The position numbers were made by a program, and so were the translations under genes. From assembly GCA_017550775.1 (NCBI GenBank), contig JAFZOA010000292.1:1-13478 (forward strand): 13,478 nucleotides of DNA, in the 5' to 3' direction. This DNA is from Ruminiclostridium sp. (GTDB lineage: Bacteria; Bacillota_A; Clostridia; Oscillospirales; Ruminococcaceae). The notes under the pieces were generated by a model. It did no database searches. It saw only the letters and a list, made by a program, of their open reading frames with translations, and was not told the origin of the DNA. How positions within the stretch are numbered: position 1 is the first letter of the stretch; each line of letters starts with the position of its first letter. Shown one piece after another: positions 1 through 13,478 of this stretch.

Positions 1-819
1 ACTGTCGTAGTTAGGCTGCTTCCTGGTCGAGCTTCCGGAGGTATTTATCGTGAATACCAGATAAACCACCGCCGCCGCAAGCAGCAGGAACATGACTATC
101 TTCTTCAGTACTCCCCATATCTTCTTTATCTTATCCCATATCCTGTACCATATAGATCTGGGCTCCTCATCGCCCGCATTCCTCTCGACTACCGAGGTCA
201 TCATCATATAGTATTTGCTGTACAGCTCTATCTTATCCGAACCCATAAGCTCCGGCAGCGAGTCAAAGAACGCCATGAGCTCATCCGGCACCTTACGCTC
301 TATCTCCTGAGCAAAAATGGTGCGCATAAGCTTCTCCGCCTTTGCCATAGGCGCACATTCCCGTGATCCGATTATATCCTCGATCGGGTAGTTGAAGCTT
401 ACGGTAAGGTCGGGCTGAACGATTATGTGACGGGGGTCGAGGCACCTGTCGAGGAAGTAATCCGGTATATCCATAAGCACCGCGCGTTCAAGTATCCTGC
501 GGCACAGCTCAAGCCGTTCACGGAAGGGTGCCGCTTCGGTATCGCTCCGGTCGGCGAGAGTAATGCCCTGGGTGTATTTCATAACGATACAGAGCGTATC
601 CTCAAACATGAAGCTGTCTATGTAATCCGTGAACACCGAAGGATCCGCGTTCGCGGAGAGCCACCCCACGAGCTCAGGGAACAGCGCCTTGTTCTTTATG
701 CTCATTATCCGGCAGAAGCCGCCGTCTCTGTCGTCCGTGCAGATATAGATGTTGTACTCGTCGGTGGACTTCTGTACGCTTGTTACCGGGTATTCATGCC
801 CGTATGTATAAATGACCAA
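1..819 (-). CDS. Single-pass membrane protein with a degenerate kinase-like N-terminal domain, partial (3' end outside window)
   Basis: Seen: 273 codons stay open to the left edge with no stop. The start is TTG at 819, preceded by AGGGAGG with 8 bases of spacing, and an in-frame TGA lies just upstream, so this start is well supported. About residues 1-150 look kinase-like to the eye: a possible beta-3 lysine (K42), a helix-C-like segment (PELVGWL), a hinge-like stretch TLCIVMKYTQGITLAD (75-90), and a catalytic-loop-like LDPRHIIV (127-134). The HRD aspartate, its loop lysine and asparagine, and the DFG motif are all replaced (C126, D128, H131, NYP at 143-145), so phosphotransfer is unlikely. 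A basic stretch (KIKKIWGVLKK) precedes one membrane helix at about 241-258, which puts the N-terminal domain in the cytoplasm and the unseen C-terminus outside. Inferred: a membrane anchor or signal receiver for the CIS, a role like that reported for CisA in Streptomyces. Homology to CisA is not shown. EssB of type VII secretion also joins a pseudokinase to one membrane helix, but this is only an analogy. Confidence 0.8.
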   Translation of the reverse strand, partial: MVIYTYGHEYPVTSVQKSTDEYNIYICTDDRDGGFCRIMSIKNKALFPELVGWLSANADPSVFTDYIDSFMFEDTLCIVMKYTQGITLADRSDTEAAPFRERLELCRRILERAVLMDIPDYFLDRCLDPRHIIVQPDLTVSFNYPIEDIIGSRECAPMAKAEKLMRTIFAQEIERKVPDELMAFFDSLPELMGSDKIELYSKYYMMMTSVVERNAGDEEPRSIWYRIWDKIKKIWGVLKKIVMFLLLAAAVVYLVFTINTSGSSTRKQPNYDS

Positions 820-827
820 CAGCTTCG

Positions 828-834
828 CCTCCCT
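828..834 (-). promoter_or_regulatory. Ribosome binding site deciding a TTG start
   Basis: AGGGAGG on the minus strand lies 8 bases before the TTG at 819. It lies after the stop of the upstream gene (855-857). The nearby ATG codons (first bases at about 842 and 797) run into stops within about 16 codons, so this site selects the TTG start of the membrane protein. Confidence 0.75.
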
Positions 835-854
835 TACTCATGTTTTATGCGGCA

Positions 855-2561
855 TTATCCGCGAACCACTACCATTATGGACGCCTTTATCTCCGGATAT
901 ACCGCGCTCTGCGCTATGACCTCATAAACGCCCTCTATGTTCGGTGCGGAGTACATACCATTCGCGTCGATCTCGCCGCCGGTGGACGGAGATACCGACC
1001 AGCGCACGGTCTTGTTCGTCATGTTGCTGCACACCGCTTCGAGATACTTTGTCTCTCTCGGCTTGATAACGAGCGAATTGGGCTTTATTGTGATCTTCAT
1101 GCTGCTCTTTTCGGCGACCTTCTCGTCCACGTCCCTGAACGCCGTCCACTTCACGTCGATATAATCCTGGAGCATGGTGGATTTTGTGAGTATGCCGATG
1201 ACGAAGCTGCCCTTCGTCGGGTCAAGCTTCGCCGCCGCCTCGTAGGGCGCGTCGTCGCTTCGGAACACGGACGGATTGCCGTAGATCATACCCGACTCCG
1301 TTACCGCGCCGAGAACGATCGTAACGCTGCCGAGACCGAGCCCGTGGAAGATCTCGTCCGAATAGAACACCTTGTTTTTTAAGCTTCCCGCGTTGAGGTT
1401 GATACGGCAGACTCCGCTCGCTATCTCGGGTGCGTTCTTACCGCTGCCGCGCGGCGCAGCTTCCGTCTTCTGCACAGCGGGAAGGTTCTCGCTGCCGGAG
1501 CGCAGAGTACGGCTCACCGCGGAGAGCAGGATATTGCTCGCGACGTACTGACCGAACGGGACATTCTCTATACTGTCGATTATCGCGGAGCCCGCCGAGT
1601 TCACAAGGATTATCCGTGCAAGGTAAAGACGCTGACCCACCGTATTGCGAAGCTCGGTATCCATGCTGTGGTCATAGCTGTCCTTCACGAGCGCGTCATA
1701 TATGTCGTCGTCGGTTATCTTAACGCTCGATCTTCCGGACAACACGCCCTCCGACGGGATCTTGTCATAAGCAAAGCGGAAGGTGAGCGGGTCGGGAGTC
1801 GCGGTACCCTCTGTATCGGTAACGTTCGAGGCGACAAGCTCATATTCGAGTGTATATTTACCCGCCTTGTCGAAAAGCGTCTCGTCGAAATTCACCTTGA
1901 TGACGGAGCCGCCGTCCGATGCGCTGTTGAGGCACACAAGCTGTATATCATACGAGAAAGCTATGAACTGCTTCGAGTATGTATCTATCTCCACCCTGAA
2001 TGTGAACGGAGAATCGGGGTTCACGAATTTCGGCATTATATGACGGATGCGGACGGTACCGTTGCGGAAAACGGTAACTGCCTGCTCATAGAGCATATCG
2101 GTGCGGTCTATGTCATCTCCGGGCTCGCTCGCGGTGAGGTAGAGGTTATAGCCCTCCTTTATCCTCTCGGCATTGACAACGCTCGTTTCGTTCACGATGC
2201 TGTGAGCGTTTCCCTTCTCTCCCTCGCTGTATTCGAGGCAAAGATATACATAGGCGTTGCTGCCGCTGCTTATCGCGGTATCATAGCCGCTGAGCATGGA
2301 GAGCTTCTTGGTAACGGGCATATCCACAACTATCTCGCGGCCTGTGGTATCGAAGGCAAGACCGCTCTCGACGGAGATCGTCGTATCGTCAACTCTTACG
2401 ACATTAAGTCCGCAAAGCACGCCGATGCCGTGTACGAGACGGTTGATGAGTCTGCGCTTGTCGTTGATGTACTTCTGCTCGAAATTGAAATCCTCAACAC
2501 TCAGAAGCTTGCCGTAAAAGTACTTGTTTCTTTCAAAGGGATAAAGCTGTGTGTTTTTCAT
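855..2561 (-). CDS. Conserved CIS-associated protein with C-terminal Ig-like domain
   Basis: This is a 568-residue protein. Its N-terminus carries the pattern NKYFYGKLLSVEDFNFEQKY (residues 12-31), followed by a leucine/arginine-rich helix, GIGVLCGL, and a VESGLAFDTTGREIVV strand pair. I recognise this arrangement from uncharacterised proteins in many CIS and phage-tail-like loci; its function is not established. The middle (about 100-480) is probably beta-rich and has no domain I can name. Residues 486-568 read as a bacterial Ig-like (Big_2-type) domain: ITIKPNSLVIKPRETKYLEA, then VRWSVSP, then GGEIDANGMYSAP and a YEVIAQS strand. Such domains usually mediate adhesion or act as structural spacers. 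There is no signal peptide, which fits assembly on a cytoplasmic particle. ATG at 2561 follows AAGGAG with 5 bases of spacing, and the site starts only 12 bases after the gpI-like gene, so the two are likely translated together. Inferred: a peripheral baseplate or short-fibre-like component. Confidence 0.85.
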   Translation of the reverse strand: MKNTQLYPFERNKYFYGKLLSVEDFNFEQKYINDKRRLINRLVHGIGVLCGLNVVRVDDTTISVESGLAFDTTGREIVVDMPVTKKLSMLSGYDTAISSGSNAYVYLCLEYSEGEKGNAHSIVNETSVVNAERIKEGYNLYLTASEPGDDIDRTDMLYEQAVTVFRNGTVRIRHIMPKFVNPDSPFTFRVEIDTYSKQFIAFSYDIQLVCLNSASDGGSVIKVNFDETLFDKAGKYTLEYELVASNVTDTEGTATPDPLTFRFAYDKIPSEGVLSGRSSVKITDDDIYDALVKDSYDHSMDTELRNTVGQRLYLARIILVNSAGSAIIDSIENVPFGQYVASNILLSAVSRTLRSGSENLPAVQKTEAAPRGSGKNAPEIASGVCRINLNAGSLKNKVFYSDEIFHGLGLGSVTIVLGAVTESGMIYGNPSVFRSDDAPYEAAAKLDPTKGSFVIGILTKSTMLQDYIDVKWTAFRDVDEKVAEKSSMKITIKPNSLVIKPRETKYLEAVCSNMTNKTVRWSVSPSTGGEIDANGMYSAPNIEGVYEVIAQSAVYPEIKASIMVVVRG

Positions 2562-2573
2562 ATCTGCTCCTTA

Positions 2574-3731
2574 TCAATACTGTTGGGTTTGATCTTCCCG
2601 GTTCCCGAGGACGCTGAAGGACATCCTTGACTTGCCGTTGAACGCGGCATTCCCCGGCTTGCCGAGGTAAGAGTTTATGCCGAGATAGGAATAGTACCCG
2701 AGGAATATGTACGGCTCAAGCACCTTGAGTTCAAACTCCACCGTTACGGGCATCATCTCGCGGGCTATGCGCCAGAGCACATCTATATCCTTATCCGACT
2801 TTATTACCTCGCTTCTGACGAGGATGAATATTTTGTATGGGTCGCTTCCGTACATCGGAACGATCGTGTTTTCGTACTCGCGGGTATTGCCCTGATCGCG
2901 GAGCGCGAAGTTCTCTACTATGAACGGCCTTTCCCCGGTGTACAGCTCTATCGCCCTGCACAGACATTCCCGCGTACCTCTGCTCCGGTACAGGCTCATC
3001 GCCATGAGAAGCAGCCTGCGAAGCTTCTTCTCCTCCCATACCGAGCAGTCGAAGATGTCGAGCCAGCCGGCAAGCCATTCGAGGTATTCGCTGTCTGCGC
3101 TGTCCGGGTCGAACTTGTCGGCGATACGGTCTATCCCGTCCTCGATCTCCTCATAGAGCGTCTGGAATATTCCGAGATAACGTTCAAGGAAGCCGCTCTC
3201 CGCGTCCGATCTCCGGTAGATCTGCGGAAGATAGTCTATCCAGGACACAGCCGGTAAGTACAGCCTTATGTCCTTTATCACCGCGGGTCTTCCGCTTATG
3301 CCGAAAAGCTCGATGTACACCCAGAGATATCGTCCGCTCACGTCATGGAGCAGTACATCTCTCGCACCGACTATCTTCTTCTTTTCGAGCACAGAAAAGA
3401 TACGGGTCTTTTCTTCGAGACCTATGCTCCTGTCGCCGAACACGGTATCAATGCTGTATGCAGTGCCATTATAAACAAATTCCTTCGTATCGGAAGCATA
3501 CACGGTTATATGGAGCTCGTCGGCGGAACAGTTTTCGGTGTTTATCAGAAGCCTGTGCCAGACCACGCCCCGGTCTTCGGAATCGAATATCCTCGTCATG
3601 AACCGTCCTATCCCGGATATCCTGTCCGAGGAAAACCGCAGGTCGCTTCCTTCGGCTTTCATGTTCTCAAATATGCCGCGCCCGAAATCATAAGCGTTGT
3701 TCAATATGAAATATTTCAGCTTTTCTCTCAT
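2574..3731 (-). CDS. Phage tail protein I (gpI)-like baseplate protein
   Basis: This is a 385-residue protein. Residues about 160-275 match the P2 gpI tail-protein family: SWIDYLPQIYRR (163-174), a FLERYLGIFQTLYEEIEDGI helix (181-200), DKFDPDSADSEYLEWLAGWL (206-225), and RRLLLMAMSLYRSRGTRECL (238-257) ending in YTGERPFIVEN. In phage P2, gpI belongs to the baseplate wedge. The first 150 or so residues are an extra, probably beta-rich domain that classical gpI lacks; similar extensions occur in other CIS loci. ATG at 3731 has GAGG about 11 bases upstream, a little far but the only good site. The gene follows the second J protein after 19 bases. Inferred: it joins the wedge proteins to outer baseplate parts such as the downstream Ig-domain protein. 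Confidence 0.88.
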   Translation of the reverse strand: MREKLKYFILNNAYDFGRGIFENMKAEGSDLRFSSDRISGIGRFMTRIFDSEDRGVVWHRLLINTENCSADELHITVYASDTKEFVYNGTAYSIDTVFGDRSIGLEEKTRIFSVLEKKKIVGARDVLLHDVSGRYLWVYIELFGISGRPAVIKDIRLYLPAVSWIDYLPQIYRRSDAESGFLERYLGIFQTLYEEIEDGIDRIADKFDPDSADSEYLEWLAGWLDIFDCSVWEEKKLRRLLLMAMSLYRSRGTRECLCRAIELYTGERPFIVENFALRDQGNTREYENTIVPMYGSDPYKIFILVRSEVIKSDKDIDVLWRIAREMMPVTVEFELKVLEPYIFLGYYSYLGINSYLGKPGNAAFNGKSRMSFSVLGNREDQTQQY

Positions 3732-3750: not shown

Positions 3751-5802
3751 TCACATATTGATCATGATGTCTATATCGGTAAGACAGGGCGCGACATTGC
3801 TCGCGAGTATGAGGTCTCCCTCTCTTGTGCGTTCGGCATTGCTTCCCTCGACCTGCATCGTGAGCACGTTGACCGAAAGTACACAGTCAAGTCCGTCGAT
3901 AAGCTCATAAAGCTTGCTGTATATTATCCCGACGCCGAACTCGTCCTTTATCGCCGAGAAGAAGTCCCTGACCGCGCCGTAAACCGCGTCTCTCGGGTCG
4001 GAATACTTCCTCGACACCGTAACATCGGTAAACACCGAGACCTCCGCATACTCGGGACGAACTATCCTGAACTGTGAGCCGAGCATCCTGCGCGGTTCGA
4101 GCCCCGCGATTATGTTCCGGATATAGCGCTCGCCGGGAACGCCCATTCCGTTCTCCGCGTAAGGCTTGACTACCACCGTGGTCACAAGCCCGTCGTCGCG
4201 GTCGGTCTTTATGACCTTGCACTTCTCTATGCGAAGCCCCTGCGTTCCGGCAACACAGCTTTCGCAGTCCGCGTCAGTAACAACGGTCTCGGTGGTCCCG
4301 ATAAGCTTCTGAGCCATTATGAAGCAGTCCTCCATTGACTGCTCATTCAGCCCGCCTGTTGAAGCGCGAAGGTTCTCAACATATATCTCTTCCCTGTCGA
4401 AGCCGTCTATCTCGTTTATCTTGCCCTTGGTGACGCAGCCGTCCGCGCCGCGCGTCAGAGAATAGCCGATTATGAGTATATCCCCTTCCGGTGCCATTCC
4501 GTGTATGCAGTCACCGAAGGTTATGACGCCTTTTCCGGTATCGAGAGTATAAACAAACTCGTCGGGTTCGGACGCGGAGAAGTCGCTTACTTTCTTCCAT
4601 TCCACATACCGCCCGCCGCTGTCCGGAAGCTCCGACATCACAGCAAAGCTCTCGTACTCCAGCTCGTCGGTATCAAGGTCGTACTCCTGGAACGGAAGTC
4701 CCGTCCCGTACCCGAGCGCCCCGTCGATCATGAAATCGGAAACAAGGTTCACCGCGCGTATGCCTTCCGATCCCGCTCCTCCGGGCACTGTGACTACGAT
4801 CCTGCCCGACCCGGCATCGAGCTGCTTCACAAAGGTCTTCACCGGTGTGAACAGCCCGTCCCTGTCTTTCAGGAATATCCGCGTGTTGCCGATAGCGGCG
4901 AGCTCCGTGAAAAGCTCTATCTCATCTCCCGGCGGAAGGTCGGCATACTCCGCCTTTGTATCTCTCTGCGTCACGGGGAGAAGGTTGAAATGAACTTTCT
5001 TTATCACGGGAAGAGCGTCGTATTCTCCGCCCGTTATGACAAATCTGATGTAGTACGCCTCATGCCCGGCTATACCGCACTTCCCGTGCTCCCTGCCCAG
5101 ACAGAACACTATCCTTCCGGGAAACAGGAACCCGTAGGTCTCGTCCATGCGCTTTACGCGTTCCCAGTTCACTCCGTCGAAGTACTCCATTTCCATGTCC
5201 ACGAGCGGCACAAAGCTTTCCGGGTCGGTGACCGGGTTTCTTCCTATCCCGTCCTCGCTTATCACATCGAACCATATCGTGTGGTATTCCTTCGCGGCGA
5301 GGGGCTTGTCGAAGCCTATATAGAATATCCCGCTGTCCGCCTTCATAAACGGGAGTATATGAAGGTTGCCGCCGAAATAGAACTGCTCACGCTCAATGAT
5401 GTTCTTCTCGTCACCGTAGTCGCACACGCAGATATCTATGGACGAAGCGGATATATATGTGCGTCTGTCCGCTTCAAAGCATATATCCCCCGCATAAAGC
5501 TTGGTACCCTTTATCGCCGTCACGTCGCTTTCGCAGATGACCGATACGTCCGTGGATGACGGCACTTTCGTGCGCCTATCCACCCCGAGAAGCTTAAGGT
5601 ACTTCCGGATGTTCTTTGAGCCTATTTTGTTTGCGTAGAACTGCTGTGCTTCCTTGAGCCACGCAAACATTTCGACCATGGTCATTCCGGGATCGTGATA
5701 GTTGAAATCCGTCCATTCCGGATATACGCTCACGATCATGTTTCTCGCGTTGTCAAGTATGTCATCAAAGTATTCGTTGTCAAGATCAATGTCGGGTAAC
5801 AA
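3751..5802 (-). CDS. Baseplate J family protein 2 (Afp12/gp6-gp7-like wedge)
   Basis: This is a 683-residue protein with a TTG start at 5802 supported by GAGG 7 bases upstream; the next in-frame ATG is at codon 22 and would cut off conserved sequence. The N-terminus has YPEWTDFNYHDPGMTMVEMF (27-46), the wedge-dimerisation signature typical of CIS baseplate J proteins. The central baseplate J signature lies around 455-500: a GYSLTRGADGCVTKGKINEI stretch, then ASTGGLNEQSMEDCF, then TVVTDADCESCV in place of the usual AVT-x-x-D. The C-terminal part (about 560-683) contains the DVTVSRKYSDPRDAVYGAVR and GVGIIYSKLYELIDGLDCV segments usual for the family. It follows the larger J protein, as afp12 follows afp11. 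Inferred role: with J1 it forms the wedge ring that triggers sheath contraction. Confidence 0.92.
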   Translation of the reverse strand: MLPDIDLDNEYFDDILDNARNMIVSVYPEWTDFNYHDPGMTMVEMFAWLKEAQQFYANKIGSKNIRKYLKLLGVDRRTKVPSSTDVSVICESDVTAIKGTKLYAGDICFEADRRTYISASSIDICVCDYGDEKNIIEREQFYFGGNLHILPFMKADSGIFYIGFDKPLAAKEYHTIWFDVISEDGIGRNPVTDPESFVPLVDMEMEYFDGVNWERVKRMDETYGFLFPGRIVFCLGREHGKCGIAGHEAYYIRFVITGGEYDALPVIKKVHFNLLPVTQRDTKAEYADLPPGDEIELFTELAAIGNTRIFLKDRDGLFTPVKTFVKQLDAGSGRIVVTVPGGAGSEGIRAVNLVSDFMIDGALGYGTGLPFQEYDLDTDELEYESFAVMSELPDSGGRYVEWKKVSDFSASEPDEFVYTLDTGKGVITFGDCIHGMAPEGDILIIGYSLTRGADGCVTKGKINEIDGFDREEIYVENLRASTGGLNEQSMEDCFIMAQKLIGTTETVVTDADCESCVAGTQGLRIEKCKVIKTDRDDGLVTTVVVKPYAENGMGVPGERYIRNIIAGLEPRRMLGSQFRIVRPEYAEVSVFTDVTVSRKYSDPRDAVYGAVRDFFSAIKDEFGVGIIYSKLYELIDGLDCVLSVNVLTMQVEGSNAERTREGDLILASNVAPCLTDIDIMINM

Positions 5803-5903: not shown

Positions 5904-5926
5904 TTAATTATCAATTATCAATTATT
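5904..5926. repeat. Heptamer tandem array (AATTATC type) overlapping a stop codon
   Basis: Plus strand shows AATTATC, AATTATC, AATTATT in direct succession (5906-5926), preceded by TT. On the coding (minus) strand this reads as repeated AATTGAT. The array supplies the TAA stop of the large J protein (5922-5924). A related array of AATTGTC units is in another gap at 11281-11305. Such heptamers are common short intergenic repeats in some Clostridia; that is recollection, not shown here. Confidence 0.65.
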
Positions 5927-8882
5927 CGACCGTTACGGTTATGTCGTGCTCGCCGTTGCGGGGAAGGATATAGCTGTACTGCGAGATAGTGTCGCTGTCG
6001 ATCTCTTTAAGCTGCCCCGCACCGGAAACATACATCGTGATATACAGGTTGCGTATGTATTCAACGTTTCTGAGCCGCAGCAGAGCGCTTCTTATCTGCT
6101 GCTCGTTCGGTACCATGCCGAGCCGCCACACATTGTCGCCGTCCGTGCCGGAAAAGGACGCGAAGTAATCCGCAAGGCACTTCTCCACGCTCTTTTTCAG
6201 CTCGAAGATACCGTTGAGCTCTTTGGTCTTGATCTCCGCGCGGACGTTTATCCTGACGAACGTAGGCTCGGTTATGTAGAGGCTGTCATCGGAGACTATA
6301 TTCCCCGGGAGTCGTCCGCTCAGGTACTGTCTGATATCTCTTACTATCCTGCTGAACTCGGAATGTTCCTTTTTCAGCACCACAAGTGTCACCGCGCCGC
6401 GCTCTTTCGCTCCGAAGGCATTTCGACCGCTCACACAGCGCAGCTTCTTTATGCTTCTCGAAGCGTTGAAGGTAAGGGTCTCAAGGTCTCTCGCCGTGAC
6501 CGCCTTCCCCTGTGTCCGTATCATGACCGCGCTGCGCTTCATCGCCTCGGCGACGGTCTCGGTGTCACAGCCGCCGTAGAAGCGCTTGTGATTGGTGACC
6601 CCGGAAACAAAGCCGTATGAGCGCTCTAAGCTCACTATCCTGCCCGCTTCGGCATTCGAGCGGTCACCGCCGCCCGTGGTGTATAGCACCCTGATGTTGT
6701 TGATGTCGGACACCGAGGGTATTCTCCCCTTGCGGCCGTTGCCGAAGGTGAAAACGCCGGTGCTCCGGTCAATGGTGTAGCAGCGCGAGCTGTTGTCCTC
6801 CATGGCGAAGGAGTTCACCTCGTTCCACTTCACCCAAATCTGCGTATCTATACCGCCGTTTCCGGAAACGCGTATAACTCTCCCCGCTTCCTCAAGCGCG
6901 TCGGCTTCCGCGTCGGTGATGGTCGTGAACTCGTTAACATACAGCTCGAAATCGAGCACGTCCGCAGCGGCAAGCCGGAACTCCGCGTTTTCGGTATATA
7001 CGTTCATGGCGAAGTATTCCTCGTTGTGGCTGTCCACGTTGACCGCCTTTACCGAGTTGAAGAATATCCCCTTTATCACCGGGAGCCCGCATCTCTTTGC
7101 CCTGTACGCGTTCTCGCCGTCGGACACGGCGACCCAGTACAGCTCCTCGCCGAACAGCTTCTTCTTCACAAAGCCGTGGTTGTCGAGGAATACCGTAAGC
7201 CCGACCCTGGTGAAATTCTCGGTCTCGTCCGCAATGTTCATGGGCTTCCAGCCCTCCGCGGTGAGATATTTCCACCGAAGCTTCGGGCGAACGGAGAGCG
7301 GGTCTTCCTCGACATCCCAGAGTATTCTCATGGGGCCGTTGTCCGGCGCGGCGGAAAAGCCGAAATACACCGTCCTGTCGGAAGCCCCGGCACAGCGGAA
7401 CGGCACGAAGCCTTCACTCTGCGCCGCCGGGGGTTCAAAGCGCCGCTCCTCTATATTGTTGTATGAAACGATGTCGCGGATATGACAGCCGCTTCCGCCG
7501 TAGTGATACTCGAAGGATATGTTGCGTATCTGCGGCGACATATACCAGCCCTTGGTCTTGTAGAGGTTCTCCGCCGAGAGCACCCTTGCCCTTATGTAGT
7601 ACCCCTCGTGCGGACCTGCGAAGGTCATGCTCATATCCCGCGGACAGGTGAAGGTCATGGTTTTGAAGCTGCTCGTAACGCCCTGAACGATGTTGAACAG
7701 GTCGGAATACCTGCTGTCCGGGAAAAGCCTTGCCCAGCCGTTTCCGTTGAAGTACTCCCATATTACGCCGGTTATCGCTATCCGGTAGGATTTGGATTCC
7801 TTGAAGTCCTTCTTGTTCGCGATCCATTTCCAGTTTATGCCGTCGTCGTCGAGCTGGTTTTCTATCGGTACCTCGACGATGTTCATGTCAAAGCTCATGG
7901 TGACCTCGGCACCGAGCTTGTCGAGTATCTCGCCGCACCCGAAATACACTTCGTTGAAGAGCTGGAAACGCTCGCCGAACGGATAGAACTCGTTGATGTC
8001 GTATTCTATGTTCCCGTTGGTAACGCAGTCGGGCGATATCGGCCCCGCCGACGGCAGAGCCTCGATGTGCGAAAAAGCAAAGCCTTCAAGCCCGGACACG
8101 TCCTTCACGGTAAAGCGTATGCTGAAGCCGTCCTCGTCCGCGGCAACGGGCGGGATATCGCCGGTCTTCGTAAGCAGAAGCTCTCCGCCGTTCTCGCTCA
8201 CACCGGAGAAGTGTAAAAAGCCGGTCTCCTCGCCCGCGTAGTATTCTATATCCACGGCCGACGGGTCTGCAAGCGCCCTGATGATCTCGTTTCCGACGAG
8301 CGAGCCGCCCTTCCGGAAGAACCTCAGCGCGATAACGCCGTCCGTTCTCACATTGAACGAATACGGGTGCGCTATCCGCATGACATGGCTTTGAAGGTTT
8401 ACGGGCGGGAGACCGAAAAACGCGGCCTTCTCTTCCTTAAAGCTCTCATACTCGCCGATAAAATCGTCGCGGTCATCGGCGCAGAATATCTTTTCTATCC
8501 TCGCGGGGGACACAAGAATGTCGTCGCAGGTCTCAAAGTGTATCGTCCCGCCGTCCTCGGAATACGACGACATCACCGCGCCCTTTTCGATAGGCGTGCT
8601 TCCCACGTCGTCCGAGGACAGCGTAAAGCTCACATATCCCTCCGACGGAGCCGCGGGGAGCAGAGAAGCGTTGACCATGTTGAAGAACGCTATCTTGTTT
8701 TTAAGCATGATACCGTTCATCTTTTTCATCGTCCCCGAGAGCATCTCCGCGTAGACAAGGGCAAGAACGGCGGCAATGTCCGGGTGAGAAAGGTTCATGT
8801 TCCATTCCGGAGTATAGCTCTTCGCCCTTTCCGTCATCTTCGCTATTATTTCGTCTTTGTCCCTGTTATCGACCCTGACCAC
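5922..8882 (-). CDS. Baseplate J family protein 1 (Afp11/gp6-like wedge)
   Basis: This is a 986-residue protein counted from GTG at 8882. An in-frame GTG lies three codons upstream (8891), but GAGGTGAG at 8887-8894 sits correctly for 8882 and overlaps the 8891 codon, so I prefer 8882. The N-terminus has YTPEWNMNLSHPDIAAVLAL (from residue 23), matching the PEW...H-x-D/DP segment of the second J protein and pointing to common ancestry. The baseplate J signature spans about 740-800: TTGGGDRSNAEAGRIVSL, then GVTNHKRFYGGCDTETVAEA with the GG near 769, then RTQGKAVTARDLETL. The region before it (about 350-700) is long and beta-rich, as in Afp11-type proteins. The C-terminus has the usual ELKKSVEKCLADYF helix and the LRNVEYIRNLYI strand. 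Role: inner baseplate wedge around the spike hub. The TAA stop lies inside a heptamer repeat. Confidence 0.93.
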   Translation of the reverse strand: MVRVDNRDKDEIIAKMTERAKSYTPEWNMNLSHPDIAAVLALVYAEMLSGTMKKMNGIMLKNKIAFFNMVNASLLPAAPSEGYVSFTLSSDDVGSTPIEKGAVMSSYSEDGGTIHFETCDDILVSPARIEKIFCADDRDDFIGEYESFKEEKAAFFGLPPVNLQSHVMRIAHPYSFNVRTDGVIALRFFRKGGSLVGNEIIRALADPSAVDIEYYAGEETGFLHFSGVSENGGELLLTKTGDIPPVAADEDGFSIRFTVKDVSGLEGFAFSHIEALPSAGPISPDCVTNGNIEYDINEFYPFGERFQLFNEVYFGCGEILDKLGAEVTMSFDMNIVEVPIENQLDDDGINWKWIANKKDFKESKSYRIAITGVIWEYFNGNGWARLFPDSRYSDLFNIVQGVTSSFKTMTFTCPRDMSMTFAGPHEGYYIRARVLSAENLYKTKGWYMSPQIRNISFEYHYGGSGCHIRDIVSYNNIEERRFEPPAAQSEGFVPFRCAGASDRTVYFGFSAAPDNGPMRILWDVEEDPLSVRPKLRWKYLTAEGWKPMNIADETENFTRVGLTVFLDNHGFVKKKLFGEELYWVAVSDGENAYRAKRCGLPVIKGIFFNSVKAVNVDSHNEEYFAMNVYTENAEFRLAAADVLDFELYVNEFTTITDAEADALEEAGRVIRVSGNGGIDTQIWVKWNEVNSFAMEDNSSRCYTIDRSTGVFTFGNGRKGRIPSVSDINNIRVLYTTGGGDRSNAEAGRIVSLERSYGFVSGVTNHKRFYGGCDTETVAEAMKRSAVMIRTQGKAVTARDLETLTFNASRSIKKLRCVSGRNAFGAKERGAVTLVVLKKEHSEFSRIVRDIRQYLSGRLPGNIVSDDSLYITEPTFVRINVRAEIKTKELNGIFELKKSVEKCLADYFASFSGTDGDNVWRLGMVPNEQQIRSALLRLRNVEYIRNLYITMYVSGAGQLKEIDSDTISQYSYILPRNGEHDITVTVE

Positions 8883-8886
8883 TGTT

Positions 8887-8894
8887 CTCACCTC
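8887..8894 (-). promoter_or_regulatory. Ribosome binding site deciding a GTG start
   Basis: GAGGTGAG on the minus strand, with 8 bases from GAGG to the GTG at 8882. The upstream in-frame GTG (8891-8889) lies inside this site and has only a weak purine stretch before it, so initiation at 8882 is more likely. Confidence 0.65.
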
Positions 8895-8944: not shown

Positions 8945-9361
8945 TCATCTTTCCGTATCTCCGTAGCCCTCGCTGATATAGAACGGGTAAACGAGGTTGA
9001 ACGGATTGTTCGTAGAGCGCACGACGTAATTCACCGTTATGACGAGCTTCCCGTCCCCGCCGTCCGACGGCTTTACATCCGCCTTTATATCCTTTATGCG
9101 GGGCTCCCAGACCACAAGCGCTCTTTCAACCTCGCGCTTTATCATCATTATCGTCGTATAATCCTGTCCGCTGAAAACGAACGAGTTTATCGCACAGCCG
9201 AAATCCGGCATCATAGGGCGCTCTCCCGGAGACGTTCCGAGGATTATCCGTATCGACTCGGCTATATCGTCCTCGGCGGATGATGTGCGCACCCTTCCGG
9301 TGTTCGGATCGACACATACCGGGAATTTAAAGCCCGTGCCGAGAAAGCTTTTATCATACAT
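8945..9361 (-). CDS. gp25-like baseplate wedge protein (Afp9 type)
   Basis: This is a 138-residue protein, a typical length for the family. The diagnostic stretch is ILGTSPGERPMMPDFGCAIN (40-59): GERPMMPDFG is the conserved core of the T4 gp25/T6SS TssE fold, although the family was once called lysozyme-like because of weak similarity. Upstream, AEDDIAESIRIIL forms the first helix. Downstream, TIMMIKREVERALVVWEPRI is the second helix, followed by DIKADV and LVITVNYVVRSTNNPFNLVY strands. In CIS and T6SS, gp25 joins the wedge to the first sheath ring. ATG at 9361 follows AAAGGA with about 10 bases of spacing. It sits between the spike and the J proteins, as in Afp (afp8-afp9-afp11). Confidence 0.93.
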   Translation of the reverse strand: MYDKSFLGTGFKFPVCVDPNTGRVRTSSAEDDIAESIRIILGTSPGERPMMPDFGCAINSFVFSGQDYTTIMMIKREVERALVVWEPRIKDIKADVKPSDGGDGKLVITVNYVVRSTNNPFNLVYPFYISEGYGDTER

Positions 9362-9384: not shown

Positions 9385-10161
9385 TCAGTTTATCTTCACC
9401 ATTGCGCCCTTTATTTCCGTCAGAGCACTTGACTGCTGCTTTATCGACGCGTTCGCCTTGATCTCGATATTCGTGCCTTCGATCTTGGTGGTGGTGCCGC
9501 TGGAGCTGAATGTCTGATCCGCCTTGATGCTTACCGTCGCGGCTTCAAGCGATATCTTCTTTCCGCTCCCGTCGAACACGCCCTTCACGCCGCCCGCATC
9601 TATCGTTATCTTCTTCTCCGCCTTTATGGAGATCTCACCGTTCTTGGAATCTATCGTAACGGAGTTGTTGCTGTCCTTGTCATGGACGGTCATGCTGTCC
9701 TTTTCCTCGTCGAGCATGATCGTCTTCCCGTTTGCCGTTTTTATCTCGATCTTCTGCTTGTTTTCGGTATCGTCTATCATGATCTCATCGTTGCCCTTGG
9801 TAACGAACCGCTTGGTCATGTTCTTTTCGGTCACGGTTTCCGCGGGCTGCGGATTTTTGCCGCTCCATATACTTCCGATAACGATAGGACAGTTCCTGTC
9901 GCCCATGCGGAACGCGACCACGACCTCATCGCCGATCTCGGGAAGAGCGTATCCGCCGTATTTGTTCCCGGCATACGGCGTCATCACCGGTATCCAGCCG
10001 GTAACGTTAAGGCCGCTTTCCCCGAGGAAAAGCTCGACCTTCACCTTGCCCGGGTTGTCCTTGTCATAGTTTTCCTTTACGGTACCGGTGACTACCCCGT
10101 TGATAATACCGCCGTCGCTTTCTCCGGGGGTGTAACCGGACATTTCATCAAACAGACTCAT
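9385..10161 (-). CDS. gp5/gpV-like OB-fold spike protein with beta-helical tail
   Basis: This is a 258-residue protein. Residues about 20-103 form the OB-fold seen in phage spikes and VgrG: GVVTGTVKENYDKDNPGKVK (22-41), GWIPVMTPYAGNKYGGYALP (55-74), EIGDEVVVAFRMGDRNCPIV (75-94) and IGSIWSGKNP. From about 112 onward comes a series of short alternating strands rich in I/K/D/T/S (such as KISLEAATVSIKA and TNIEIKANASI) that should trimerise into the intertwined beta-helix of the spike needle. It ends with GAMVKIN. There is no lysozyme domain as in T4 gp5 and no PAAR domain. ATG at 10161 follows AGGGGG with 5 bases of spacing, and the gp27-like gene ends 15 bases upstream. In Afp8 and VgrG the gp27 and gp5 parts are one protein; here they are two genes, as in phage P2 or T4. 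Function: membrane-piercing tip of the injection tube. Confidence 0.94.
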   Translation of the reverse strand: MSLFDEMSGYTPGESDGGIINGVVTGTVKENYDKDNPGKVKVELFLGESGLNVTGWIPVMTPYAGNKYGGYALPEIGDEVVVAFRMGDRNCPIVIGSIWSGKNPQPAETVTEKNMTKRFVTKGNDEIMIDDTENKQKIEIKTANGKTIMLDEEKDSMTVHDKDSNNSVTIDSKNGEISIKAEKKITIDAGGVKGVFDGSGKKISLEAATVSIKADQTFSSSGTTTKIEGTNIEIKANASIKQQSSALTEIKGAMVKIN

Positions 10162-10176
10162 CTTGTCCCCCTATGA

Positions 10177-11256
10177 TCATACCCAGCCCTTTGCCTCGAA
10201 CAGCGTTCTGAATGTTGACGAGTTGATGTGATGCGTTACCTCGGTCAGGTAATAGCTCTTGTTCGCGATCTCGTCTATCTCGTCCACCTGAAGGTACCGA
10301 CCCGGGACTATCTCCGGGATCCCTATGAGCTCGCCCTCGGCATAGCAGCTTTCCCGTTTGAGCTTATCAGAGATGCTGCATACGCGTATCTTCGCCTTTT
10401 CCTCGCTGTCCGCGTCCGCGTCTATGAAGAACTGCTTCTGTGCCGGGGTGAGAACGGGCGTCTGCTGCTCGCTGCTCTTGACGGTCGCCTTTGAGGAGAT
10501 GCTTACGCTGTTTTTCGGGTCATAGCCTATGACCTCTATCTCGGTATCGAGATAATCCGACATGGTGCTTATCCGGAAGAGCTCTCTCCCGTAGATCACC
10601 GTCATTATCGGTGTTTTGTTCGCACAGGGCTTCCTGAAATATGCTTTATCGTAGAGAATGAAGAATTCGCGCTCGGATTTTCCCTTTTTCAGCAGCTCGT
10701 TCTTCACGAAGTTATAGTCGCTGGTGCTCTGGGACACGGGCGCGGTAAGCTTGTCGTTCGTGGCTTCCGCCTCTATGCTGCAAAGCTTTGAGTACCTGCC
10801 CATGACCTTCTTGAAAATATCGGAGTAGTTCTTGTCGTCGTATAGCTGCTTTCTTATACCGCTCGTCATCATGAGCCTGCGAGCGTCCATGAGCTTTACG
10901 ACCAGCATCGGTTCCTCGTCGATCTCTGTCCCGAGACCGTCAACATAGCCCTTGAACACGGGTATCGTCGCAGAAAGATATCCGACCTCGATCTCCATTA
11001 CCGTACCGAGCTTGAAAAGAGACTTCACCTTGCTGTCGAAGCTCCTCTTTTCTATATTGTAGAGACCGGCGAGCTTTATTACCGCCATTCCTGCGTTTTC
11101 CAGAGAGAGCGTCACGGAAAGATCGGCGACCGTGAGATTGTTCTTCGCTACCAGATCCGTGCCGCCGGACTTTATCCTGAACGCCGGCACAACGAAGCAC
11201 CCGTACTTATTCTCAAGAGATGAGTACTTCTCGGTAGCCGTCATAAGGTCTGCCAT
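10177..11256 (-). CDS. gp27/gpD-like spike hub protein (VgrG N-terminal half)
   Basis: This is a 359-residue protein resembling phage late-control gpD and the gp27 half of VgrG/Afp8. Visible family features are the N-terminal barrel with SVTLSLENAG (47-56), the VFKGYVDGLGTEIDEEPMLV strands (100-119) where a new ring contact is expected, the VSQSTSDYNFVKNELLKKGK stretch (174-193, the usual S-D-Y/x-F-V/L motif), EREFFILYDKAYFRKP, and the C-terminal VPGRYLQVDEIDEIANKSYY (317-336) followed by LTEVTHHIN. These hubs form a trimer that adapts the sixfold tube to the threefold spike. ATG at 11256 follows GAGGTGA (GAGG 9 bases upstream). It precedes the OB-fold spike gene by 15 bases, with which it forms the split hub-spike pair. 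Confidence 0.9.
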   Translation of the reverse strand: MADLMTATEKYSSLENKYGCFVVPAFRIKSGGTDLVAKNNLTVADLSVTLSLENAGMAVIKLAGLYNIEKRSFDSKVKSLFKLGTVMEIEVGYLSATIPVFKGYVDGLGTEIDEEPMLVVKLMDARRLMMTSGIRKQLYDDKNYSDIFKKVMGRYSKLCSIEAEATNDKLTAPVSQSTSDYNFVKNELLKKGKSEREFFILYDKAYFRKPCANKTPIMTVIYGRELFRISTMSDYLDTEIEVIGYDPKNSVSISSKATVKSSEQQTPVLTPAQKQFFIDADADSEEKAKIRVCSISDKLKRESCYAEGELIGIPEIVPGRYLQVDEIDEIANKSYYLTEVTHHINSSTFRTLFEAKGWV

Positions 11257-11330: not shown

Positions 11331-12056
11331 TTACCTGTCGCCTATCGAAGGCACCCTGAGTATCTCGCCCACCGGGATATCGAGCGGGTTCATTATCCCG
11401 TTCGCGTCCGCGATCCTGCGCCATTCGCGCACATCGCCGTACTCCTTCTTCGCTATGTTCCAGATACTGTTGTCCTCGGTCATCACTCTCGCCTTTGTGC
11501 GGTCGGGCGACTGGAACGGGTCAAATTTCATCGAAACGAAGCCGTTGGTGCCGCGAAGCGTCAGATCGACTGTCGCACGAAGCGGCTTTCCGAACATATC
11601 GAACATCGTGTATGTTATAGCGACGCTTTCCGCGTAACCGTTAAAATCGGTGCTTCCCCATAAGAACTGAACGCTCGGGGGTTCGTGACCTTCGCCGTCG
11701 ATGAGGGTAAGATCCGCAAGACGCTCGATCTTGTCCATCATGTCCTCTTCGTCGTTCAGAAAGTTTGACGCAGCTTCGGCGACAGCGCCCAGAGACAAAT
11801 TGAAATCGCTGTCAAAATAAAGCTTGACATTGAGCACCGCGAGCGGTCTTCCCACGAACTGTACAGAGGGGGTGTTCTCCTGCCGCCGGGCTGCCTCAGA
11901 GTAATCGGTGCGTTCAAGTATCCGGTACTCGGAAGGGTTGAACTGCGCCACTATCGCGTTGTCCTTATCCCCGTCCACTATTATCGAAGCCTTCTGCCTG
12001 CCGGGTTCGTCCATAAGCTTGGCTCCGCCGTCAATAAGGGTCGTTGACAATCCCAT
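11331..12056 (-). CDS. CIS tube-initiator protein with C-terminal LysM domain (Afp7/gp53-like)
   Basis: This is a 241-residue protein. The N-terminal part (about 20-185) matches the CIS tube protein family: a VAQFNPSEYRILERTDYSEA stretch (37-56, the family's F-N-P-x-E/x-Y signature), VQFVGRPLAVLNVKLYFDSD (65-84), PPSVQFLWG, AVTITYTMF-like strands and LRATVDLTLRG. The C-terminus (about 190-238) is a LysM domain: EDNSIWNIAKKEYGDVREWR (194-213), IADANGIMNPLDIPVGEILR (216-235), VPSI. In CIS the family sits at the base of the inner tube and its LysM domain contacts the baseplate, so cell-wall binding is not implied. ATG at 12056 follows AAAGGAG with 7 bases of spacing. Its place before the hub gene mirrors afp7-afp8. 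Confidence 0.92.
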   Translation of the reverse strand: MGLSTTLIDGGAKLMDEPGRQKASIIVDGDKDNAIVAQFNPSEYRILERTDYSEAARRQENTPSVQFVGRPLAVLNVKLYFDSDFNLSLGAVAEAASNFLNDEEDMMDKIERLADLTLIDGEGHEPPSVQFLWGSTDFNGYAESVAITYTMFDMFGKPLRATVDLTLRGTNGFVSMKFDPFQSPDRTKARVMTEDNSIWNIAKKEYGDVREWRRIADANGIMNPLDIPVGEILRVPSIGDR

Positions 12057-12105: not shown

Positions 12106-13478
12106 TCAGGTGAACCGCGATCTGTCGAGCCTCATGCGGCTCCGAAGTCTTCTTATCATCTCGTCGGAAATAGACTCCATATCGCTCGATCTGAGCGTTG
12201 TACGCTCTATCTCCCTCTGTTTGTCGCGTATCTCCTCGATAAGCTTGCTGTTGACGGCTACCTTCTCCGCAGTCGCTTCTATTGCCGCCATCGCTTCTCC
12301 TATCCCGTGCCTTCCGACCTCGAAGGACGGCATAAACCCCGCGTCCGCGCCCTCGATAAGGTTGCCGAACTGCCTTATAAGCTCGTTCCTGTCCGGCTGC
12401 GGAGGAGCCGCCTGCTGTACGGGCTGCGCGTCCCGTGCGGGAGCCTGACTGCGGTATTGAAGCGCCGGGCTTTCCGGCATCAGTGCAGTCATAGAACCGT
12501 TTTCCGCGTTCTCATTCCCGGCAGTCCTCACCGCCGCGCCCGTATCATATCCGTTTGCCGCCGCGCTCTGTCTGCCCCTGACAAGCAGGTCCCGCGCGAC
12601 TGTCACAGGCTTTCTGTGTACCGTCATGTCTCTGCCCGCCGCGGAAGCTTGCCGCTGTATCACGTCCGTGCTTACAGCCGCCGAAGCTCCGGCGCTCCCC
12701 GGTATTATCATTCGTTCGAGCGAACGCAAGGGGAGCAGGTGAACACTCTCCGCTGCCGCGCCGCCGCTCACAAGCGTTACCGGGAGCTCATACTCCGATA
12801 TCACTGTGTTGTATGTGTAGTTATAGTCCGCGTGATCGACCGTGCCGGGGGTGGGAGAAACGCTGTCCCCGACGATACCCGAATACCCGGCGGGAGCGGT
12901 CTTTCCCGCATACGCCGGCCGCCCGTGAACGGACGAGCCCGCCGACACAGACGGGACAGTAGCCGGACTGCGCCGTGTCGCCCCCGCCGGGGCAGCGCCG
13001 ATACGTTCTGCGGCGGTCTTGAACATTCTTTCGTATATCGCTGTACGCTCTGCCGCCGTTCCGCCCGGAGACAGCCTGTAGACCGCATTTGCCGGAGCGG
13101 CGCTGTTCATGTATTCATTGTAAGTCGTGTCTGCAATATTCACCGTGCCGCCCGCAATACCCGTTGTCAGGCGGGATACATCGGCGTTCGTAACGTTGCC
13201 GCTGTGATATGACCGGATATCGTTCCTTACCGTAATGTTGGTTCTCCGGTCGGTATATCTCTCCGCTCTCTCCGGAAGCCGTAAATGGGCATCGTTCGCG
13301 TCACGCGCGGCGGTTACCGCGTACCGCATCTCCGTCGGCATATATGCGGCGTTCCTGACTCTTTCGGTAAGCAGTCTCTCCGTACCCGACGCGCCGGGAA
13401 CTCCGAAATAAAGCTTTCCAAGCTCCGAAGCGACCGTTGTTCCCGAACCTGCCGCACTTGCGGCTCCGATGTACTTTA
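12106..13478 (-). CDS. Alanine- and arginine-rich protein with C-terminal coiled coil, partial (5' end outside window)
   Basis: Function not recognised. The frame is open to the right edge: 456 residues are visible and the first 45 lie upstream of the ATG at 13341, which has no ribosome site before it, so that ATG is internal and the true start lies beyond the window. The sequence is low in large hydrophobics and rich in A, R, G, S, T and P. It looks largely disordered, with recurring tyrosine/arginine segments and loosely similar phrases (LSPGGTAAER and LVSGGAAAES). A proline/glutamine linker (QPVQQAAPPQPDRN) precedes a charged helical C-terminus, about visible residues 392-456, with IEATAEKVAVNSKLIEEIRD and ERTTLRSSDMESISDEMIRR, likely a coiled coil. 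No signal peptide or membrane helix is visible. It ends 49 bases before the tube-initiator gene, so it is in the operon. It could be a structural, assembly or cargo-related protein; homology to Afp6 or a tape measure cannot be shown. Confidence 0.75.
   Translation of the reverse strand, partial: KYIGAASAAGSGTTVASELGKLYFGVPGASGTERLLTERVRNAAYMPTEMRYAVTAARDANDAHLRLPERAERYTDRRTNITVRNDIRSYHSGNVTNADVSRLTTGIAGGTVNIADTTYNEYMNSAAPANAVYRLSPGGTAAERTAIYERMFKTAAERIGAAPAGATRRSPATVPSVSAGSSVHGRPAYAGKTAPAGYSGIVGDSVSPTPGTVDHADYNYTYNTVISEYELPVTLVSGGAAAESVHLLPLRSLERMIIPGSAGASAAVSTDVIQRQASAAGRDMTVHRKPVTVARDLLVRGRQSAAANGYDTGAAVRTAGNENAENGSMTALMPESPALQYRSQAPARDAQPVQQAAPPQPDRNELIRQFGNLIEGADAGFMPSFEVGRHGIGEAMAAIEATAEKVAVNSKLIEEIRDKQREIERTTLRSSDMESISDEMIRRLRSRMRLDRSRFT

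Follow-up and report, generated by a model that had tools for sequence, protein, structure and literature searches.

Contractile injection systems (CIS) whose particles lie in the cytoplasm and have no envelope complex of the T6SS type raise the question of how the particle comes to the membrane and is told to fire, and two answers to it were found in the literature. The bitopic protein CisA of Streptomyces is needed for firing, and its gene stands right behind the baseplate genes, a position usually taken by tail fibres (PMC12237407); the protein combines a disordered N-terminus with an exported domain like that of substrate-binding proteins. In Anabaena, Cis13 gives the particle its membrane anchor at the baseplate: its N-terminus binds the baseplate, its C-terminal transmembrane (TM) helix anchors the particle to the thylakoid membrane, and 9 of 14 particles floated free when the helix was missing (PMC8894136). 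Bitopic proteins with kinase-like domains are described from other Gram-positive machines. YukC/EssB, the interaction hub of the T7SSb, has a pseudokinase domain (residues 3-206) that binds the FHA region of the ATPase, followed by a TM helix (220-243) and an extracellular domain (244-384) (PMC9600267). TraF of the pIP501 T4SS, a Gram-positive envelope machine for conjugation, has a kinase-like N-terminal domain and two soluble domains (PMC13037476).

The window analysed here is a stretch of 13,478 nucleotides from Ruminiclostridium sp. (contig JAFZOA010000292.1). Its ten genes run in the order open frame, CIS tube, GPD-like hub, VgrG-like spike, gp25, two baseplate proteins, CIS12-like protein, CIS13-like protein and a bitopic pseudokinase, here called PK:

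12106-13476, minus strand: open frame of 456 aa before the tube gene, rich in Ala, Arg and Thr
11331..12056, minus strand: CIS tube protein with a LysM-like end (Pfam CIS_tube; LysM match below the cut-off)
10177..11256, minus strand: hub protein, GPD-like (weak match below the cut-off)
9385..10161, minus strand: VgrG/gpV-like spike protein (Pfam Phage_base_V)
8945..9361, minus strand: gp25-like baseplate wedge protein (Pfam GPW_gp25)
5922..8891, minus strand: Baseplate J-like protein, 989 aa (Pfam Baseplate_J)
3751..5802, minus strand: baseplate assembly (J-like) protein, 683 aa (TIGR02243, E 9.5e-42, below the cut-off; PHROGs baseplate wedge)
2574..3731, minus strand: Tail_P2_I / CIS12-like protein (family matches)
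855..2561, minus strand: CIS13-like baseplate/fibre protein, 568 aa, encoded directly before PK
828..835, minus strand: AAGGGAGG, ribosome-binding site of PK with a spacing of 8 nt to the start codon
1..819, minus strand: PK gene, with a TTG start at 819 and the left edge still open
184..819, minus strand: kinase-like domain of PK, residues 1-212 (AlphaFold model, fold searches, profile matches)
43..99, minus strand: predicted single TM helix of PK, residues 241-259 (hydropathy 2.55; helix 223-259 in the model)
1..42, minus strand: start of the predicted exported tail of PK, residues 260-273, with the first part of the conserved FDSIGTV, which continues beyond the edge

The 456-aa frame has no match in Pfam or NCBIfam and one weak match in PHROGs, with no function named. 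The CIS13-like protein matches the NCBIfam model CIS13_fam over residues 8-150 (E 1.4e-21, 77 bits against a family cut-off of 370), a match limited to the N-terminal part. Judged by hydropathy, PK has the only clear TM segment among the ten proteins, and the CIS13-like protein is the runner-up with a peak of 1.51. In Anabaena, one protein binds the baseplate and crosses the membrane, whereas the window has one gene for the CIS13-like protein and another for the TM protein. Since the CIS13-like protein lacks a clear TM segment and the next gene encodes both such a segment and a putative binding platform, PK may supply the missing anchor. Docking split over these two proteins would be the simplest reading of the gene arrangement.

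The original prediction had described a TTG-opened frame with a ribosome site that runs off the left edge, and both the site and the frame hold; the N-terminus of the PK in the window is common to its relatives. A search among 5.8 billion proteins returned 76 relatives at E<=1e-3, and the few source names on them are Ruminiclostridium, Ruminococcus and Lachnospiraceae. The closest relative has 99% identity and a length of 283 aa, so the PK of the window should stop about 10 residues beyond the left edge; the genes beyond this edge are known from relatives alone. The concern that the protein might end soon after the edge and lack a conserved exported part was therefore half justified: the stop is expected that early, but the short tail is nonetheless conserved. 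Compared with the loci of three relatives, pN of PK is 0.11-0.17 and pS is 0.62-0.64, and this difference indicates that selection keeps the protein.

The AlphaFold model and fold searches assign PK a two-lobed protein kinase-like (Hanks type) fold, and this fold was predicted twice, from separate alignments of two PK clades. The kinase-like order first noticed in the N-terminal 150 residues is thus real and extends further, to about residue 212. At the profile level, PK is linked to kinases by matches to NEK1 and PAK1, and the NCBIfam models for Bud32 and for PknB-type kinases match 11 (best 5.4e-4) and 3 (best 1e-4) of 41 PK members. A plain kinase was considered and rejected, with no Pfam kinase model among the families listed for these 41 members.

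On our reading of the HMMER alignment, the site of the HRD aspartate is PK residue 126, which is Cys in 73 and Ser in 3 of the 76 relatives and Asp in none. In a wider set of 48 proteins (39 survey copies from CIS loci, 3 references and 6 from outside CIS), Asp is absent from this site in all 47 non-gap rows, the distant ones being roughly aligned. The string HRD does occur in the clade-2 protein P0109, at residue 229, which lies before the helix and outside the catalytic loop. PK residues 142-144 read F-N-Y and are nearly constant (F in 75, N in 74 and Y in 75 of 76, with Asp at 143 once), and a literal HRD or DFG is found in none of the 76 relatives. The putative beta-3 lysine, Lys42, is Lys in 69 relatives, His in 5 and Arg in 1. 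Because the HRD aspartate is lost, PK is, judged by its sequence, a pseudokinase rather than a kinase. The claim that the catalytic residues are missing stands in full for this aspartate and is less clear for the DFG motif: the 76 relatives have no literal copy, but 31 of the 39 survey copies keep an acidic residue at position 147 or 148, slightly beyond the place where DFG is expected. This residue is mostly D followed by F or L, and the copy in L103 reads LDFG. As this residue is mostly kept, the kinase-like domain may still bind a nucleotide or metal.

The topology proposed at the outset, with one membrane helix, positive residues before it and the kinase-like domain in the cytoplasm, is borne out by the relatives. 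In 72 long relatives the median hydropathy of the helix is 2.63, and in 71 of them the net charge is higher on the N-terminal side of the helix than on its C-terminal side, which makes an N-in orientation likely. A median of 24 residues follows the helix. The linker is variable (mean commonest-residue fraction 0.41), and by the same measure the tail at positions 270-280 (0.79) is conserved to a degree comparable with the kinase core at 61-150 (0.76). The tail consensus is F-x-x-I-G-T-V-x-I, with I274 and G275 present in 72 of 72 non-gap rows. Clade 2 has its own version, in which F270, I273, G274 and E276 show no variation across 55 aligned rows; F..IGT lies near the C-terminus in 91 of 117 long members, compared with 0.2% in shuffled sequences, and ten inspected tails without it all carry IGL. 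The string IGTV is also found in the carboxypeptidase-regulatory-like protein of locus L006.

One of the described systems closest to PK is EssB/YukC. Both have a kinase-like cytoplasmic domain of about 200 residues that has lost catalytic residues (in PK, the HRD aspartate), followed by one TM helix, and both are encoded in a Gram-positive export or injection locus. They differ outside the membrane, where YukC has the extracellular domain cited above and PK only about 24 residues. Membership in the EssB/YukC family was rejected: PF10140 is absent among the 24 families listed for the 41 members at E<=1, and hhalign gave a probability of 0.6% against one EssB-type protein, taken from a PF10140 search of 60 and 199 genomes (1 and 2 matches at E<=1e-3, one of them above the cut-off). 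The 50 matches listed for each fold search with the PK models include no EssB/YukC chain, a listing short enough that a structural match may lie beyond it. TraF resembles PK in its described layout and differs in its two soluble domains and its role in conjugation. CisA shares with PK the single membrane pass and the gene position right after the CIS baseplate genes; it differs in its disordered N-terminus, where PK has a folded kinase-like domain, and in its exported substrate-binding-type C-terminal domain, which is absent in PK with its short tail. By analogy, we consider it about evenly balanced whether PK is a membrane hub of the EssB/YukC kind, one that would tether cytoplasmic particles to the envelope and connect them with the locus's receptors. 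To the same explanation, which is the best one available and is held with the same reserve, belongs the view of PK as a standard accessory part of the contractile injection systems of Clostridia.

The genomic context was assessed with two samples. A scan of genome contigs identified 29 PK loci, and baseplate genes lie upstream of PK in 28 of them. In the exception, L017, housekeeping genes lie upstream and CIS genes downstream; since the CIS13-like gene of this genome ends 187 bases from a contig end, the exception may stem from assembly. The idea that the PK gene ends the operon was wrong. A MORN-repeat membrane protein gene follows PK in 25 of the 29 loci (L001, L028 and L029 end at or before it, and in L005 the frame caller took an antisense frame), and it is followed by genes for Pvc16_N, carboxypeptidase-regulatory-like, DUF4280/PAAR-like and small cyclase-like proteins, a HAMP-SpoIIE phosphatase, an AAA ATPase and a protein termed c6, each present in 16 to 24 loci (clustered frames, with Pfam names from L006). 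As conserved CIS genes, among them those for the Pvc16-like cap and the PAAR-like tip, follow PK, it closes the baseplate block and not the operon.

Several members of this downstream run deserve mention in their own right. The MORN-repeat protein, with an N-terminal TM helix, is encoded at L006:10862-13702 (+) and in 24 further loci; no description of a role of such proteins in CIS was found in the open-licence literature. The HAMP-SpoIIE phosphatase (L006:16393-18129, +), the small cyclase-like protein with weak PycC matches (L006:15538-16350, +) and a HAMP-guanylate cyclase receptor within a CIS locus (L083:5252-8134, +) are a possible signalling module of CIS loci. The label "cyclase-like" for the small protein comes from weak PADLOC cyclase matches (best E 4.8e-4) and from its profile similarity to larger receptors, among them one that Pfam names a guanylate cyclase. 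The c6 protein of about 170 aa, without a Pfam match, occurs in tandem pairs at the locus end (L015:19645-20166 and about 20102, +; also L009, L016-L019 and L023). In L009, a BTAD/AAA-type regulator (18369-20498, +) after the CIS genes replaces the AAA ATPase of the other loci.

The second sample started from the CIS13-like protein, which was searched in 391 genomes of the class and in 247 and 250 genomes of two families, the samples overlapping. At E<=1e-20, 45 distinct loci were obtained, of which 42 are evaluable because L105, L123 and L130 end at once; six genomes with best E-values of 1.0e-7 to 5.6e-4 in frames of 855-1975 aa had been dropped before this count, as their matches cover a short stretch only. 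PK is tightly linked to the CIS baseplate genes: a match to the PK profile, which was built from all three PK alignments and includes at least five of the surveyed copies (L036-L040), directly follows the CIS13-like gene on the same strand in 39 of the 42 evaluable loci, starting between -61 and +190 nt from its stop. PK is absent beside this gene in L041, L042 and L131, and so the particle can do without it. All 34 complete copies have a TM helix, and all 34 have an [IV]G[TDSN] tail, a motif that shuffled tails match 8.6% of the time; 22 of them have F three places before it. The length is 278 to 302 aa in 32 copies and 277 and 393 aa in the other two. The remaining five of the 39 copies are cut, and one of these, complete in L082, has 249 aa and no TM helix. 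The distant copy of L029 (197 aa) also has none, and a search with it matched only itself and one clade-1 protein. Because of these two copies, membrane anchoring is not universal.

The gene after PK encodes a TM protein in all 33 loci where it is visible, 16 matching the MORN profile and 17 not matching it. Wider stretches were viewed for seven divergent CIS genomes, of which six have MORN proteins, five have PK, and five have TM-sensor proteins (795-960 aa) matching cyclase profiles; among these sensors, Pfam names a cyclase in that of L083 and HAMP in those of L082 and L083, but no receptor domain in the other three (L077, L079 and L080). A hydropathy peak of at least 1.6 was observed in 9 of 70 CIS13-like proteins (7/44 and 2/26), so a membrane contact of their own is conceivable. 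In a CIS locus without PK, L084:13868-17411 (+), two genes follow the CIS13-like gene, one for a protein of the ABC substrate-binding type, a type to which the exported domain of CisA has been likened as well, and one for a membrane protein of the MFS type.

This arrangement bears on what PK might do other than docking. It could be a signalling adaptor that binds the phosphatase or cyclase ends of the receptors and controls expression, assembly or release of free particles. Such a role would fit the HAMP-SpoIIE phosphatase in the downstream run, the TM-sensors with cyclase-profile matches beside PK in divergent loci, and the well-documented cases in which a pseudokinase works as an allosteric adaptor (PMC13037476, PMC12599244). 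We nevertheless regard it as rather unlikely, since the steady neighbour of PK is the baseplate gene, whereas the receptor varies in type and place and is encoded several genes away in the L075 and L001-L029 loci. TM proteins of phage-derived loci are often lysis factors, which could suggest that PK is a holin-like release factor or, alternatively, a cargo or immunity protein of the particle. For a cargo, the tendency of eCIS toxins towards the 3' end of operons, as given in a survey (PMC8213781), could be cited as well. However, the PK gene lies between those of the baseplate and the cap, its position and length are stable, it evolves under constraint, and neither PADLOC and PHROGs nor the phage records contain a match; these roles appear highly improbable.

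Beyond CIS loci, a profile of 13 PK members matched 81 of the 391 class genomes at E<=1e-3. The six top matches (E<=2.8e-56) are the sample's own CIS copies, the majority of which had gone into the profile. Six further ones (E 2.7e-21 to 1.1e-13) rank next and consist of a kinase-like domain and a TM helix followed by LysM (L069-L071) or PKD (L072-L074), and many lower-ranked matches are short segments of frames of 400-900 aa. The stretches of 4.6 to 19.9 kb around L069-L074 contain no matches to CIS profiles, and the kinase-like part of these proteins has no Pfam name. Profile comparison with PK gave 96% for L072 and 95% for L070, and comparison of PK with clade 2 gave 96% over nearly the full length, tail included, which supports a common descent of PK, clade 2 and the LysM/PKD relatives. 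These relatives resemble PK in the homologous kinase-like domain and TM helix and differ in their folded exported domains and in the lack of surrounding CIS genes. Hence, the pseudokinase-TM architecture serves other roles too, and the expectation that homologues would be found mostly in CIS loci holds for the close family, whose 29 loci all contain CIS genes, but not for the remote relatives.

One CIS copy connects the two groups. The PK of L096 (3261-4442, +; 393 aa) has the IGT tail motif and then a LysM-like domain, which scores 20.4 bits against a Pfam cut-off of 20.9; it bridges CIS and non-CIS proteins and hints at the wall as the outside partner of PK. It could also be read, together with the LysM and PKD relatives, as a sign that PK is an envelope or wall sensor, in which the tail or LysM-like end would sense the state of the wall and the kinase-like domain would pass this on to the particle or to a kinase. 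This reading is improbable, because the tail measures 20 to 34 residues in 33 of the 34 complete survey copies, which is less than any known wall-binding fold needs.

For PK as a docking hub, the following mechanism can be proposed. The kinase-like domain would serve as a cytoplasmic protein-binding platform and contact the periphery of the baseplate, where the C-terminal part of the CIS13-like protein is the probable partner, as suggested by the adjacency of the genes. An otherwise free particle would thereby be docked under the cytoplasmic membrane. The helix would cross the membrane, and the exported [IV]G[TDSN] tail would engage a partner in the envelope, for which the MORN-repeat membrane protein and the wall are candidates. 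Receptors of the locus, either the HAMP-SpoIIE phosphatase or the TM-sensors with cyclase-like ends, could signal to the docked particle, and their proximity suggests that docking is the entry point for a signal as well. Each of these contacts, the docking and the gating of firing are what we infer from gene order and from the analogy to known hubs. A more far-reaching and more tentative proposal is that Clostridia have a class of envelope-docked CIS built around a bitopic pseudokinase, a MORN-repeat protein on the wall side and HAMP-phosphatase or cyclase receptors, in which PK holds the particle cocked and an outside signal triggers firing from within the cell.

That no CIS component of this design had been described agrees with the database searches, as no family in Pfam, NCBIfam, PHROGs or PADLOC covers PK and all matches there are weak. 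An origin as a phage or plasmid gene was rejected for lack of a match in phage or plasmid collections, two pattern matches in viral contigs not being confirmed, and a defence gene was rejected for lack of a PADLOC match. In the open-licence literature, no published account of a pseudokinase in contractile injection systems was found; subscription papers could differ. The papers returned deal, judged by their titles, with other subjects, such as human or animal cells, a cockroach gut and the T6SS protein Fha. The text of the eCIS survey (PMC8213781) does not use the word "transmembrane" and mentions kinases three times, none of them a CIS pseudokinase, and that of a review on bacterial pseudokinases (PMC12599244) contains neither "contractile" nor "LysM".

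CIS loci with PK occur in many gut and rumen bacteria. Besides CisA of Streptomyces and Cis13 of Anabaena, PK is a candidate for a third way, widespread in Clostridia, in which contractile particles could reach the membrane, and it gives experiments a single gene and a single tail motif as targets. The finding also suggests a repeated recruitment of bitopic pseudokinases as assembly hubs by Gram-positive secretion machines. If the proposed role is true, the CIS of Clostridia would join the T7SSb with EssB/YukC and the T4SS with TraF as a third Gram-positive machine for secretion or injection that a dead kinase organises.
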